A stretch of 64,000 nt of DNA, from contig JAIBBJ010000126.1 in assembly GCA_019694735.1 (NCBI GenBank), positions 1 to 64,000 of the forward strand, read 5' to 3'. Origin of the DNA: Gemmatimonadaceae bacterium. GTDB lineage: Bacteria > Gemmatimonadota > Gemmatimonadetes > Gemmatimonadales > Gemmatimonadaceae. Every line of letters begins with the position of its first letter. Within the stretch, counting starts at the first letter, position 1. A program made the position numbers and the translations under genes. The notes under the pieces were generated by a model, which saw only the letters and a program-made list of their open reading frames with translations, ran no database searches and had not been told where the DNA came from. Shown piece after piece: positions 46,059-53,520 of the stretch.

Positions 46059-47087
46059 TCACGCGCCAAGCACCTCGCGGACCGCACGATCCACGCGGAC
46101 CGTCGAGCCGACATCGTCGAGCGGATCACGGCGGAGCCGGTGGCGCAGTGCGCTCGCCGCGATCGTGCGCAGATGCTCGAGCCCGACCGCGCGCGCCCCC
46201 TCGTACGCCGCGAGCGCGCGCGCGCCCCGCAGCAGTGCGAGCTCACCGCGGATGCCGTCCGTGCCGACGGCCGCGCACAGGCGCGCCGCCTGATGGAGCA
46301 CCTCATCCGGGACCGCGATCGTCTCCAGCTTCTTCCGGGCGCGCTCCACCCTCCGACGCGCGACGGCGTCCGCGTCCGCCCACGCCGCCACGAAACCCTC
46401 CGGGTCGCGGTCGAACGCGTCGCGGCGGCGCACGACTTCCACGCGTTGGGCGATGTCCGTGGTCGTCGTCACCTCGACCGAGAGACCGAAGCGATCGAGG
46501 AGCTGCGGTCGGAGGTCCCCCTCCTCGGGGTTGCCGCTGCCGACGAGCACGAACCGTGCGGGATGCCGCACGCTGATGCCCTCACGCTCGACGACGTTCT
46601 CGCCCGTCGCGGCGACGTCGAGGAGGAGGTCGACGAGATGATCCTCGAGGAGGTTGATCTCGTCGACGTAGAGGTAGCCGCGATGGGCACGCGCGAGGAG
46701 GCCGGGCTCGTACGCCTTCTCCCCGCGGGCCAACGCCCGTTCCAGGTCGAGCGCGCCGACCACGCGGTCCTCGGTGGCACCGAGCGGGAGATCGACCACC
46801 GGCACGGGGCGCTTCTCCGAGCGCAGCGCCTCGCCGGCGCGTTCGCGCGCGAGACACTCGGCACACTTGCGGCCGTTCGCCGAGGGATCGCAGCCGTAGC
46901 GACAACCTTTGACGGAGGCCATCGCCGGGAGCAGGGCGGGGAGAGCGCGGACGGCCGTCGACTTCGCGGTACCGCGATGACCGAGGATGAGCACGCCGCC
47001 GATGGTCGGGTCGACCGCGGTCAGCAGGATCGCCCGCTTCATCTCATCCTGCCCGACGATCGCCGAGAAGGGGAAAGCGATGCGCAC
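46059..47087 (-). CDS. bchI: Magnesium chelatase ATPase subunit I
   Basis: The 342-residue AAA+ protein starts VRIAFPFSAIVGQDEMKRAIL and carries Walker A GHRGTAKST (residues 36-44), the insertion with CRYGCDP...CAEC characteristic of BchI, Walker B YLYVDEINLLEDH and sensor FVLVGSGNPEEGDLRPQLLDRF. I chose GTG at 47087 because GGAG precedes it by 5 bases and because a promoter (-10 at 47116-47121) lies inside the longer open frame to 47144. It drives ATP-dependent rearrangement of the chelatase ring with BchD. Confidence 0.95.
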   Translation of the reverse strand: MRIAFPFSAIVGQDEMKRAILLTAVDPTIGGVLILGHRGTAKSTAVRALPALLPAMASVKGCRYGCDPSANGRKCAECLARERAGEALRSEKRPVPVVDLPLGATEDRVVGALDLERALARGEKAYEPGLLARAHRGYLYVDEINLLEDHLVDLLLDVAATGENVVEREGISVRHPARFVLVGSGNPEEGDLRPQLLDRFGLSVEVTTTTDIAQRVEVVRRRDAFDRDPEGFVAAWADADAVARRRVERARKKLETIAVPDEVLHQAARLCAAVGTDGIRGELALLRGARALAAYEGARAVGLEHLRTIAASALRHRLRRDPLDDVGSTVRVDRAVREVLGA

Positions 47088-47115
47088 TTCGACTCCGGGG
47101 GAGAGTGTCAAGCCT

Positions 47116-47144
47116 AGTTTACGACAACCGACCTTCTGTCGCAA
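47116..47144 (-). promoter_or_regulatory. bchI-bchD-puhE promoter (minus strand)
   Basis: Read on the minus strand, TTGCGA (47144-47139) and TAAACT (47121-47116) have a 17-bp spacer. The -35 box lies within the first TGT-N12-ACA palindrome, so a repressor there would block RNA polymerase. Transcription would start about 47109, leaving a short leader with GGAG before the GTG of bchI. Confidence 0.55.
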
Positions 47145-47180
47145 CCTCCTGACATTTTGTATTGTCTAGCCCTATTGACA
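47137..47180. promoter_or_regulatory. Paired PpsR/CrtJ-type operators between bchI and crtF
   Basis: Two palindromes match TGT-N12-ACA exactly: 47137-47154 (TGTC...GACA) and 47163-47180 (TGTC...GACA). They are separated by exactly 8 bp, the spacing known for cooperative binding of PpsR/CrtJ in purple bacteria. The first covers the -35 box of the leftward bchI promoter and the second ends in the -35 box of the rightward crtF promoter. No ppsR gene is in the window. Confidence 0.75.
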
Positions 47181-47203
47181 CTACGCGGAAACGGTCGTAT
47201 CCT
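47175..47203 (+). promoter_or_regulatory. crtF promoter
   Basis: The consensus -35 TTGACA (47175-47180) and TATCCT (47198-47203) are separated by 17 bp. The -35 box is the right half of the second PpsR-type palindrome. The predicted transcript starts near 47210, giving a leader of about 57 nt before the ATG at 47267. Confidence 0.6.
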
Positions 47204-47266: not shown

Positions 47267-48436
47267 ATGGGATCGAGAGAGACCGCGATCGCGGGCGTGT
47301 CGGTCGACGCCGAACCGGTGCCACTCACGTGGCGCGATCGGTTGTTGGCGTGGCGCGATGCGATCCAGTCGAGCCCTCGTTTCCAGCGGTGGGCCGCAAG
47401 TTTCCCGCTGACACGTCCGATTGCGCTGGCGCGTTCGCGGCGGCTGTTCGACCTGACGGCCGGGTTCGTCTACACGCAGACCCTGACCGCGTGCGTACGG
47501 GTCGGACTGTTTGACTTCCTGGCAGAGCGGCCACGGACGCGCGCGGAGATCGCCGCGCACATCGGCGTGCCGCTCGAGGAGACGGAGCGACTGTTGCGGG
47601 CGGCGGCTGCGCTGGAGCTGGTGCAGGGCCGGTCAGGTGGGCGGTTCGGCTGTGGACCGATGGGTGCGCCGCTCATCAAGAACGATGGATTGGCGCGAAT
47701 GATCGAACACAACGCGTTGCTATACCGCGACTTGGTCGATCCAATCGAGTTCTTTCGGACTTTTGAGCGCAGAGACAGCGCAGTATCAGAGCACTTTCCG
47801 TACACTAAGGTAAGAGATCCTCAGAATTTCGGTCGCGGGGTGGTCGCGGAATACAGCGACCTGATGGCTGAGACCGTTCGACCGCTCGCTGAGGACATCC
47901 TGGATCGATTCCCACTTCAGGGGCGCCGGACGCTCCTCGACGTGGGCGGAGGCGAAGGGGCCTTCCTCGCGGAAGTCGCGTGGAGGTACCAGAGCCTGCA
48001 GTTGAAGTTGTTCGACCTCCCGGCCGTCATCGAGGGAGCGCAGGTACGTCTGGCCCGGCTGGGTCTTGTGGGGCGGGTGGAATTGTCCGGGGGGAACTTT
48101 CATCAGGACCCCCTCCCAGCCGGTGCCGACGTAATCACCTTGGTGCGTGTGCTGCTCGATCACGACGACGAGTCGGTGCTGCAGCTGCTCCACAAGGTGA
48201 AGCGGGCTCTTGAGCCCGGTGGCGTCCTGCTCATCGTCGAGCCGTTCTCCGGCGTGCGCGGCGCCGAGGCGGTCGGGGACGCCTATTTCGGCCTCTACCT
48301 CCGCGCGATGGGAAGAGGTCGGGCACGGCGAGCGGACGAGCTACGCGCATTGCTGGGGAAGGCCGGCTTCACGCGGACCAGGGTCCATAAGACGCGGTAC
48401 CCGGTCTACGCCGGCCTCATCTCCGCGCAGCACTAG
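47267..48436 (+). CDS. crtF: Carotenoid (hydroxyneurosporene/demethylspheroidene) O-methyltransferase CrtF
   Basis: The 389-residue protein has an N-terminal winged-helix dimerisation region (FDLTAGFVYTQTLTACVRVGLFDFLAERPRTRAEIAAHIG) and a methyltransferase domain with TLLDVGGGEGAFLAEVA (SAM motif I), LKLFDLPAVIEGA, LVRVLLDHDDESVLQLLHKVKRALEPGGVLLIVEP. This matches O-methyltransferases of the CrtF type that methylate the tertiary hydroxyl of acyclic carotenoids. ATG 47267 gives the usual family length; the frame opens at a TTG (47162) inside the operator, which I reject. Part of the gene (about 47740-47830) is visibly less GC-rich than its surroundings. Confidence 0.88.
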   Translation: MGSRETAIAGVSVDAEPVPLTWRDRLLAWRDAIQSSPRFQRWAASFPLTRPIALARSRRLFDLTAGFVYTQTLTACVRVGLFDFLAERPRTRAEIAAHIGVPLEETERLLRAAAALELVQGRSGGRFGCGPMGAPLIKNDGLARMIEHNALLYRDLVDPIEFFRTFERRDSAVSEHFPYTKVRDPQNFGRGVVAEYSDLMAETVRPLAEDILDRFPLQGRRTLLDVGGGEGAFLAEVAWRYQSLQLKLFDLPAVIEGAQVRLARLGLVGRVELSGGNFHQDPLPAGADVITLVRVLLDHDDESVLQLLHKVKRALEPGGVLLIVEPFSGVRGAEAVGDAYFGLYLRAMGRGRARRADELRALLGKAGFTRTRVHKTRYPVYAGLISAQH

Positions 48437-48515: not shown

Positions 48516-48559
48516 TGTCAGGTTTGCTTGACGTTTTGGGTTGTAAGTCGTACGTTACC
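48516..48559. promoter_or_regulatory. Paired PpsR/CrtJ-like operators and promoter upstream of bchC
   Basis: TGTCAGG...CTTGACG (48516-48533, TGT-N12-ACG) and TGTAAG...GTTACC (48542-48559, TGT-N12-ACC) each differ by one base from TGT-N12-ACA and are again separated by exactly 8 bp. TTGACG (48528-48533) is a good -35; 17 bp on, TACGTT is a weak -10. Their position over the presumed promoter copies the classic R. capsulatus bchC layout. The 155-base gap from crtF holds nothing else I can name. Confidence 0.65.
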
Positions 48560-48591: not shown

Positions 48592-49527
48592 GTGAAATCG
48601 GTTGCGGTAGTCTTCGATTGCCCGAAGCAGCTCTCGCTGCGCGAGCTCGCGCTCGCCCCAGCGGGAGCTGGCGACGTGGTGGTCGACATCGCGTTCTCCT
48701 CGATCAGCGCCGGCACGGAACGGTTGCTGTGGGAGGGGCGCATGCCGCAGTTCCCTGGGCTCGGCTACCCGCTCGTGCCCGGCTATGAATCCGTCGGCGT
48801 CGTCACGGCCGCGGGTCCCGAGGCCGCGCTCCCGGTCGGCACCACGGTCTTCGTGCCGGGCGCCAACTGCTACGGAGACGTCCGCGGCCTGTTCGGCGGC
48901 GCATCGCACACCGTGGTCGCGCCAGCCGCGCGCGTGATCCCCGTCGATGCCGCCCTGGGCGAGCGCGCGACGCTGCTCGCACTCGGCGCGACGGCCTACC
49001 ATGCCCTCGTCGCCGGCAGCGTCCTGCCCGAGCTCATCATCGGGCACGGCGTCTTCGGCCGGCTCACCGCCCGCCTCACCCGCGCGCTGGGCGGCTCGCC
49101 CACGGTGTGGGAGAAGGCACCGCAACGCATGGCGGGCGCACTCGCGTATCCCGTCCTCGCGAGCGACGCCGACCCGCGGCGCGACTACCGCTGCATCCTG
49201 GACGCGAGCGGCGACGCCGCGCTCCTCGACAGCCTGATGTTCCGCCTCGCGAAGGGGGGCGAGATCGTCCTCGCCGGCTTCTACGCCACCCCGATCGCCT
49301 TCCAGTTCCCGCCCGCCTTCATGAAGGAGGCGCGGCTGCGGATCGCCGCCGAGTGGTCCCCGGGCGACCTGGCGCACGTGCTGGACCTGGTCAATAGCGG
49401 CCGCCTCTCGCTCGACGGCCTCATCACCGACATCGCCCCCGCCGACCGCGCAGCCGACGCCTATCGCGCCGCCTTCGAGGATCCGGCCTGCCTGAAGATG
49501 GTCCTCGACTGGAGAACGCTCTCGTGA
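48592..49527 (+). CDS. bchC: Bacteriochlorophyllide a dehydrogenase
   Basis: The 311-residue MDR-type dehydrogenase has SSISAGTERLLWEGRMPQFPG, YPLVPGYESVGVV, FVPGANCYGDVRGLFGGASH and LIIGHGVFGRLTARL as in BchC. It oxidises the 3-hydroxyethyl group of the chlorin ring to 3-acetyl on the way to bacteriochlorophyll a. The start is GTG 48592 with AAGGA upstream. It overlaps bchX (GTGA) and heads the bchCXYZ operon, preceded by paired PpsR-like sites. Confidence 0.95.
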   Translation: MKSVAVVFDCPKQLSLRELALAPAGAGDVVVDIAFSSISAGTERLLWEGRMPQFPGLGYPLVPGYESVGVVTAAGPEAALPVGTTVFVPGANCYGDVRGLFGGASHTVVAPAARVIPVDAALGERATLLALGATAYHALVAGSVLPELIIGHGVFGRLTARLTRALGGSPTVWEKAPQRMAGALAYPVLASDADPRRDYRCILDASGDAALLDSLMFRLAKGGEIVLAGFYATPIAFQFPPAFMKEARLRIAAEWSPGDLAHVLDLVNSGRLSLDGLITDIAPADRAADAYRAAFEDPACLKMVLDWRTLS

Positions 49528-50542: not shown

Positions 50543-52066
50543 ATGGCGACCTCCCTGCCCATCGTCGAGACCCCCGCCGCGCTGACCGGCGACGGCCTCG
50601 GCTGCCACAGCGGCGCGGCGCAGCTGGAGGCGGCCGCGCGCGCGGCGGGCAAGAGCGAGGCGCTCGACCGCTACGCGCAGGACTATCCGAAGGGCCCGCA
50701 CGACCAGCCGCAGTCGATGTGCCCGGCGTTCGGCTCGCTCCGCGTCGGGCTCCGCATGCGCCGCACCGCGACGATCCTCTCCGGTTCGGCCTGCTGCGTC
50801 TACGGGCTGACCTTCACGTCGCACTTCTACGGCGCGCGCCGCACGGTCGGCTACGTGCCGTTCAACTCGGAGACGCTCGTGACCGGGCAGCTCTTCGAGG
50901 ATATCCGCGACGCGGTGCACCAGCTCGCCGATCCCGCGCTCTACGACACGATCGTCATCACGAACCTCTGCGTGCCGACCGCGTCGGGCGTGCCGCTGCA
51001 GCTGCTGCCGCCGGAGATCAACGGCGTCCGCATCATCGGCATCGACGTGCCCGGCTTCGGCGTCCCCACGCACGCGGAGGCGAAGGACGTGCTCGCCGGC
51101 GCGATGCTGAAGTACGCGCGCACCGAGGCCGAGCAGGGCCCGGTGCAGGCGCCGCGCGGTGGCCGGGCGCAGCGGCCCACGGTGACCCTGCTGGGCGAGA
51201 TGTTCCCCGCGGACCCGGTGGGCATCGGGATGATGCTCGAACCGCTGGGACTGGCGGCAGGGCCCGTGGTGCCGACGCGCGAGTGGCGCGAGCTGTACGC
51301 GGCGCTGGACTGCAGCGTCGCCGCCGCGATCCATCCGTTCTATACCGCGAGCATCCGCGAGTTCGAGGCGGCGGGCCGTCCGGTGGTCGGTTCGGCGCCG
51401 GTCGGGCTCGACGGCACGGCCGCGTGGCTCGAAGCCATCGGACGGGCGGCGAACGTCGCCGACGGGAAGGTGGATGCCGCCAAGGCGCGCATCCTCCCCG
51501 CCATCCAGGGGGCGCTGGCGAAGCAGCCCATCCGGGGGCGGATCACGATGAGCGGTTACGAGGGCTCCGAGCTCCTCGTCGCGCGGCTGCTCGTCGAGAG
51601 CGGCGCCGACGTGCGGTACGTGGGCACGGCGTGCCCGCGCACGCGCTGGAGCGACGCGGACCGCCAGTGGCTCGAGGCGAAGGGGGTGCACGTGCAGTTC
51701 CGCGCCTCGCTCGAGCACGACCTCGCCGCGATGCACGAGTTCTCGCCCGACCTCGCGATCGGCACGACGCCGGTGGTCCAGGCCGCCAAGGAGCGGACGA
51801 TCCCCGCGCTCTACTTCACGAATCTCATCTCGGCGCGGCCGCTGATGGGACCCGCCGGGGCGGGCTCGCTCGCGCAGGTCGTGAACGCGGCGCTGGGGAA
51901 CAAGGCCCGGTTCGAGCGCATGAAGGACTTCTTCGCCGGCGTCGGCGAGGGGCATGCCGCCGGCGTCTGGGAGGACGTCCCGCAGGACCATCCGGAGTTC
52001 CGCGAGCACTACAAGCGCCACCTGGCGAAGCTCGCGCGGCAGCGGAAGGCCGAGGAGATGGTCTGA
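50543..52066 (+). CDS. bchY: Chlorophyllide a reductase subunit Y
   Basis: The 507-residue NifD-like protein has the cluster/pigment region [48 protein letters not shown] and [14 protein letters not shown], which provides Cys ligands. [37 protein letters not shown] is typical of BchY. With BchZ it forms the catalytic component of chlorophyllide a oxidoreductase. It starts 5 bases after the bchX stop and overlaps bchZ by one base (TGATG). Confidence 0.96.
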
Positions 52067-53520
52067 TGCTCGTCCTCGACCATGACCGCGCGGGCGGGTA
52101 CTGGGGCTCGGTGTACGTCTTCACCGCCATCAAGGGGCTGCAGGTCGTCATCGATGGCCCGGTGGGCTGCGAGAATCTGCCGGTGACCTCGGTGCTGCAC
52201 TACACCGACGGGCTGCCGCCGCATGAGCTCCCGATCGTGGTGACCGGGCTCGCCGAGGAGCAGCTGGGCCGCGAGGGGACGGAAGGCGCGATGAAGCGCG
52301 CCCATGCGACGCTCGACCCCGAGCTGCCGAGCGTGGTGGTCACCGGATCGATCGCCGAGATGATCGGCGGCGGCGTGACGCCCGAGGGCACGGGCATCCA
52401 GCGCTTCCTGCCCCGCACGATCGACGAGGACCAGTGGCAGAGCGCGAACCGCGCGCTGTTCTGGCTCTGGACGGAGTACGGGCTCAAGAAGGGCGTGCGG
52501 CCGAAGCGCCGCGAGCGTGAGCCCGGGACGAGACCGCGGGTCAACATCGTCGGTCCGATCTACGGCACGTTCAACACGGCGAGCGACCTCCACGAGATCC
52601 GGCGCCTGGTCGAGGGGATCGGCGCCGAGGTGAACCTGACGTTCCCGCTCGGCAGCCACCTGCAGGACGTGCCGCGGCTCGTTGATGCGGACGTGAACAT
52701 CTGCCTCTACCGCGAGTTCGGGCGGATGCTCTGCGAGAACCTCGACATGCCGTACCTCCAGGCCCCGATCGGGATGGAGTCGACGACGAAGTTCCTCCGG
52801 GCGCTCGGCGGCCTGCTCGGGCTCGACCCGGAGCCGTTCATCACGCGGGAGAAGCACACCACGCTGAAGCCGGTGTGGGACCTGTGGCGCTCGGTGACGC
52901 AGGACTTCTTCGGCACGGCGAGCTTCGCGATCGTCGCCAATGAGACGTACACGCGCGGCGTGCGGCACTTCCTCGAGGACGAGCTCGGGCTGCCCTGCAC
53001 CTTCGCCATCGCGCGCGTCGCCGGCCAGAAGACGAAGAACGACGAGATCCGCCGCCTCGTGAAGGAGCGGACCCCGCTGGTGCTGTTCGGCTCCTACAAC
53101 GAGCGGATGTACCTGAGCGAGGCGGGGGGCCGGGCGATGTACATCCCGGCCTCCTTCCCCGGCGCGATCATCCGCCGCCACACGGGCACGCCGTTCATGG
53201 GGTACGCCGGGGCGACGTATCTCGTGCAGGAGGTGTGCAATGCGCTCTTCGACGCGCTGTTCCACATCCTCCCGCTGGGGACCGAGCTCGACAAGGTCGA
53301 CGCCACGCCGTCGCGCCTGCAGGCCGAGATGGCGTGGGACGACGAGGCGAAGGCGCTGCTCGACGAGCTGGTGGAGTCGCAACCGGTGCTGATCCGCATC
53401 TCGGCAGCCAAGCGGTTGCGCGACGCGGCGGAGCGTGATGCGCGGGGCCTGGGCGACACGACGGTCACCCGCGACCACGTCCTCGCGTCACGCCGGACCC
53501 TCACCGCGGCGGGCGTCTGA
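52066..53520 (+). CDS. bchZ: Chlorophyllide a reductase subunit Z
   Basis: The 484-residue NifK-like protein has [74 protein letters not shown] and [37 protein letters not shown]. It ends the bchCXYZ operon. Its last 33 bases overlap the 3' end of the antisense bchO gene, so the usual direct continuation into puf is broken here. Confidence 0.96.

Follow-up and report, generated by a model that had tools for sequence, protein, structure and literature searches.

The intergenic region between bchI and crtF in a Gemmatimonadota MAG, whose closest named records are also Gemmatimonadota MAGs, raises the question of whether two divergent photosynthesis promoters share one PpsR/CrtJ operator, and whether such control was kept from the donor of the genes. 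In the window (the whole stretch of DNA analysed, 64,000 nucleotides), palindrome 1, TGTCGCAACCTCCTGACA, occupies 47137–47154 and palindrome 2, TGTCTAGCCCTATTGACA, occupies 47163–47180, and the 8 bp between them read TTTTGTAT; as for all PpsR-type sites below, no strand is assigned. Both match TGT-N12-ACA exactly, and the first-pass annotation, which had reported these sites and this gap, was correct to the base. The promoters are also as it described them. That of bchI, TTGCGA-17-TAAACT, runs on the minus strand at 47116–47144 (−35 at 47144–47139, −10 at 47121–47116; relatives have TAnnnT at the same position), and that of crtF, TTGACA-17-TATCCT, on the plus strand at 47175–47203 (−35 at 47175–47180, −10 at 47198–47203; the −10 of relatives is TATCGT-like). 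The outer half of palindrome 1 overlaps the bchI −35 and the outer half of palindrome 2, TTGACA, is the crtF −35; because each outer half-site is thus one promoter's −35, the two hexamers stand back to back with 30 bp between them. From these promoters, transcripts of bchI and crtF are predicted to begin near 47109 and 47210. This arrangement is that by which a PpsR/CrtJ operator is defined, a TGT-N12-ACA palindrome, usually paired, over photosynthesis promoter elements.

On the left of the operator, bchI (46059–47087, minus strand; Mg-chelatase ATPase subunit I; TIGR02030, 513.7 bits, above the cut-off) has a probable GTG start at 47087 with GGAG just upstream, as read from the sequence, and bchD comes next after it. 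On the right, crtF (47267–48436, plus strand) encodes a hydroxyneurosporene-type O-methyltransferase, with a methyltransferase-family match under the equivalog cut-off, a probable ATG start at 47267 and a match of ∼50–82% to crtF of named Gemmatimonadota loci. Because crtF is the first gene of crtF-bchCXYZ-puf, in which bchC lies at 48592–49527 (plus strand; TIGR01202, 416.5 bits, above the cut-off), the genes that its promoter drives are probably those for pigment and the reaction centre more than those for carotenoids. Hence the earlier suggestion that a single repressor assembly could shut both pigment and carotenoid genes holds in so far as one −35 of each divergent promoter is overlapped, but its carotenoid part is probably overstated. 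A candidate BchY-BchZ fusion ORF (50719–53520) was rejected, because the frame seems merely to stay open ahead of bchZ, without a fusion.

Single sites of this kind carry no signal. The window holds two perfect TGT-N12-ACA matches, both of them the bchI/crtF palindromes, where 3.2 are expected, and across the genome single TGTN12ACA sites are not enriched (153 compared with 142 for a reversed control pattern), a tally that we dropped as uninformative. The comparison of TGTCN10GACA with its reversed pattern (26 and 2) was also set aside, because codon bias may differ between the two. The pair is more than chance: in the genome scan that the first-pass annotation had proposed, the 8-bp-spaced pair occurs once in 3.52 Mb (G000, 226 contigs), with ∼0.013 TGT-N12-ACA pairs at gaps of 7–8 expected, and it turns up in 2.5e-5 of mononucleotide shuffles of the bchI/crtF intergenic region. 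A third, degenerate PpsR-type site, TGTCAAGCCTAGTTTACG, lies over the bchI −10 (47106–47123; scored at 12.5 by a matrix built from other genera) and is conserved in relatives in part only; it had been overlooked at first pass, as had the degenerate 8-bp pair at bchC (48516/48542) described below.

The pair is also conserved in related phototrophs, as would be expected of a PpsR/CrtJ operator. Both palindromes upstream of bchI are intact, at a gap of 7 or 8, in six of the seven assessable phototrophs of the genus (G000, G001, G002, G004, G011 and G012); in G003 one base has changed and the second palindrome begins CGT, not TGT, and G008, whose contig ends at bchI, was left out of the count. The palindromes might be only a by-product of back-to-back promoters, with the −35 boxes TTGACA and TTGCGA giving the outer halves and the rest arising by chance, and since the outer half-sites are the −35 hexamers, promoter constraint alone would conserve those halves. 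The inner halves speak differently. In palindrome 1 TGTCGCAA and TGACA are invariant in the seven same-genus genomes, and in palindrome 2 TTGACA is invariant and the left TGT is kept in six of the seven; the inner TGACA at 47150–47154 and TGT at 47163–47165, which no −35 explains and no promoter needs, are thus conserved while the palindrome interiors vary. Moreover, the spacing classes are few and tied to genomes with ppsR, and a by-product of promoter constraint therefore appears already disfavoured and, in our judgement, very improbable.

This tie to ppsR is seen across 179 family genomes, in which pairs with gaps of 0–30 were considered. In ppsR+ genomes the pairs peak at gaps 7, 8 and 17 (11, 12 and 10 of 47 pairs), and gaps 7–8 are present in 21 of 48 ppsR+ versus 3 of 131 ppsR− genomes (Fisher 2e-11, a value that overstates the evidence because the family genomes share kinship and are not independent, in a count where having ppsR is confounded with having the gene cluster). 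Gaps other than 7–8 showed no difference between ppsR+ and ppsR− genomes in this set. Two of the three ppsR− genomes with a gap of 7–8 (G002 and G118) have other photosynthesis-cluster operators or genes, ppsR not having been found in the assembly. The 17-bp class is the bchI/crtF junction in Gemmatimonas, where the gap is longer by approximately one helical turn; in G. groenlandica TET16 the bchI/crtF pair is degenerate and has a 6-bp gap, and at this junction no intact pair was found in G034 and G019. As a separate observation, several ppsR− family members (G061, G069, G074–G077, G138, G022, G139, G162, G030, G196 and G197) have TGTC-N10-GACA pairs spaced by 5 bp, which are probably the operator of another regulator. 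Two further genomes, G013 (L205, G013:C56) and G016 (L206, G016:C253), have ppsR, aerR and bch genes, with BchI not found in the assemblies, which reflects either incomplete assembly or a partial cluster.

The repressor itself, which the first-pass annotation had expected as a PAS-PAS-HTH protein, is encoded outside the window on the same contig, at C80:73063–74379, 26 kb from the palindromes. With this gene present and the palindromes conserved in relatives, both checks by which the first-pass reading could have fallen came out in its favour. This PpsR homologue scores 459.5 bits against a cut-off of 275.4 (TIGR02040), resembles R. sphaeroides PpsR (4hh2) and has the PpsR/CrtJ architecture of that family, with three PAS domains and a Fis-type HTH (PAS_4, PAS, PAS_9, HTH_8) rather than two PAS. 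Directly upstream of ppsR is the gene of an AerR-like B12 protein, best matched in the PDB by AerR (7te2), which has the B12-binding domain and keeps the residues at the positions of the His145 ligand and the Trp94/Phe101 cap (counted on the 7te2 alignment, numbering of PMC9144470), the features of an AerR/PpaA antirepressor. The gene bchG follows ppsR, and bchF-N-B-H-L is divergent from aerR. A perfect TGTC-N10-GACA also lies within aerR (L010:12792–12809, C80:72792), ∼180 bp before ppsR, with its position shared by five genomes of the genus, and could be an operator or a coding constraint. The true ligand of the bchI/crtF palindromes could instead be another regulator with a TGT-N12-ACA-like site, such as a CarH-type MerR/B12 repressor, and the genome does have, at another locus, a gene for a CarH-family protein preceded by a TGTC-N10-GACA site (C61:22811). 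The match of this protein lies under the family cut-off, however, while the motif at bchI/crtF is the published PpsR/CrtJ motif and the distribution of the sites follows ppsR, and we consider CarH or its like a highly unlikely ligand. The site upstream of the CarH-like gene is TGTCTAGCAACACTGACA (L200:1812–1829, G000 C61:22811), accompanied by a further TGTC...GACA element.

Further PpsR-type sites were sought with a leave-clade-out motif scan, in which the matrix trained on other genera was applied to the genus of the window, and the reverse, with a line at 11 bits. Most genomes examined have matches at bchI/crtF, bchF/aerR, bchC and bchG, and a match inside aerR is confined to the window's genus; none was found in the window's first 40 kb (non-PGC), in 80 kb of relatives' flanks, or upstream of puf in the window genome. 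At bchC, the site TGTCAGGTTTGCTTGACG (48516–48533, score 17.2) ends in the −35 (TTGACG), and a degenerate partner, TGTAAGTCGTACGTTACC (48542–48559, score 9.3, under the 11-bit line), lies 8 bp on over the −10 (TACGTT); G034 and G131 have perfect 8-bp pairs at bchC. The bchF/aerR operator, outside the window between divergent bchF and aerR-ppsR (C80:72028–72061, L010:12028–12061), consists of two palindromes overlapping by 2 bp, TGTCAA...TTnACGTnn...TTGACA, a form present in 33 of 48 ppsR+ versus 1 of 131 ppsR− genomes. From these matches, phototrophic Gemmatimonadaceae would keep at least four PpsR-type control points, at bchF/aerR-ppsR, bchI/crtF, bchC and bchG. One intergenic TGTC-N10-GACA site, TGTCCTGTTCTGCTGACA (L011:11911–11928, C80:91911), was kept out of this regulon as it lies beyond the photosynthesis genes; it precedes a long ORF that, judged by eye, resembles type III glutamine synthetase. 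Outside the cluster in Gemmatimonas, a 7-bp-spaced pair lies upstream of a squalene/phytoene-synthase-family gene (L152:1501–1543, which is G101:C1:2891071–2891113, and L160:1501–1543), and further Gemmatimonas genomes have pairs like it.

It had been proposed that the donor's light and oxygen control was kept after transfer, and at bchI/crtF the junction itself does not support this as worded: it is divergent in 8 of 8 Gemmatimonadota loci with a name, whereas not one of 72 proteobacterial loci examined has it. In 13 of these 72, crtF lies ∼5–7 kb downstream on the same strand, and in the others it was not found within the DNA covered; the orientation of the sub-cluster has been described as particular to Gemmatimonadota (PMC7844134). 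Because the divergent junction is seen in Gemmatimonadota only, the context of the operator is, as far as gene order tells, not simply kept from the donor, and its two sites would each have been either brought along and then joined, or have arisen in place. The bchF/aerR operator probably has a different history. Of the 34 genomes of proteobacterial phototrophs that were tested, 12 have its overlapping form, 11 of them at the bchF/aerR junction, and because alpha-, beta- and gammaproteobacteria all carry it there, this operator was probably transferred together with the cluster. In Dinoroseobacter shibae, PpsR sites between divergent bchF and ppaA were tested by reporters (PMC10890935); like here, the sites stand between divergent photosynthesis promoters and an antirepressor–ppsR gene pair adjoins, but they correspond to the bchF/aerR operator (C80:72028–72061) and not to bchI/crtF, and D. 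shibae also uses the LOV protein LdaP.

The 8-bp gap had been equated with the known cooperative spacing of PpsR/CrtJ. It does match R. capsulatus bchC, where CrtJ sites lie at −47 to −30 and −21 to −4 with 8-bp spacing (PMC5362033), and there as here two TGT-N12-ACA palindromes for the same regulator family lie over promoter hexamers; the R. capsulatus sites, though, take in both hexamers of a single promoter, −35 and −10, and the bchI/crtF sites take in the −35 of each of two divergent promoters. It is the bchC pair of the window that has the R. capsulatus layout over −35 and −10, in degenerate form. The word cooperative fits less well, for Rubrivivax gelatinosus PpsR, which uses similarly close pairs at other genes (8 bp at crtI, 9 bp at pucB), binds sites 8 bp apart with less cooperativity than sites 9 bp apart, and its binding was redox-dependent at the 9-bp spacing but not at the 8-bp one (PMC4452267).

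The claim of retained oxygen control is not supported by the protein or by the nearest studied relative. Redox-dependent binding of CrtJ is controlled by Cys420 in the HTH (PMC9144470). At that position (PpsR HTH, L010:12988–14418), 38 of 38 Gemmatimonadota PpsR rows, which count a few loci of the same genome twice, have Phe, versus Cys in 6 of 7 proteobacterial rows, and the HTH cysteine that marks a redox-responsive Rhodobacter-type PpsR/CrtJ is thus missing. A Rubrivivax PpsR with Cys changed to Ala at the equivalent position still represses (PMC4452267). In Gemmatimonas phototrophica the cluster showed no oxygen response, the light response was transient, weak and ∼2-fold, and ppsR was unchanged (PMC11406998). 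Because of the Phe in the HTH, the redox-independent 8-bp spacing in Rubrivivax and these responses, we infer that control is more likely exerted by B12/AerR (light) than by oxygen. The same observations allow that the operators and PpsR persist but do little, with weak or constitutive binding and with sites kept for basal promoter tuning: because G. phototrophica showed no oxygen response and a weak, transient light response, the operator may have little effect in vivo, and the HTH cysteine is lost in all Gemmatimonadota PpsRs examined. However, matching sites at four promoters across several genera, together with retained B12-binding residues in AerR, would be hard to maintain without function, and we regard so inert a circuit as unlikely, though worth keeping in mind.

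The reading we prefer, with a probability of roughly three in four, is that the palindromes form a tandem PpsR/CrtJ operator that two divergent promoters, those of bchI(D) and crtF-bchCXYZ, have in common, as one of four or more control points, with a light/B12 signal via AerR. Two PpsR dimers, or a tetramer, would sit on the two palindromes, ∼26 bp centre to centre, and bound PpsR would cover both −35 hexamers and lower transcription in both directions. The entry point of the signal would likely be the AerR-like B12 protein whose gene immediately precedes ppsR, and the signal would therefore be light; the HTH redox thiol would not be the route in a lineage without that thiol. More tentatively, the whole PpsR-AerR circuit may possibly have crossed from purple bacteria with the cluster, the bchF/aerR operator being inherited and the bchI/crtF one new, and the repressor now acting as a thiol-free B12/light switch and not an oxygen/redox one.

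Judged by its bases and their conservation, the PpsR-type operator at bchI/crtF is real and conserved; it is of a known kind, at a divergent junction specific to Gemmatimonadota, and the lineage appears to have kept a small set of such predicted PpsR switches since acquiring photosynthesis from purple bacteria, with the redox cysteine lost. In G. phototrophica a single PpsR site was reported in the cluster, at the start of bchID-puhE (PMC11406998), that is, at the same genes and in the same phylum as the operator described here, and the transfer has been described as presumably giving none of the donor's regulatory circuits (PMC12817894). In contrast to that single site, G101 (probably AP64) has two bchI-side palindromes 17 bp apart, sites also at bchF/aerR, bchG and bchC, and the intact pair outside the cluster. 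With matched operators at four promoters and with ppsR and aerR kept across several genera, the published single-site, no-circuit view should be revisited, and it becomes directly testable whether a pathway and its control circuit were transferred together over a long distance, the prediction being that the surviving signal would be B12/light and that what was lost would be the HTH thiol.
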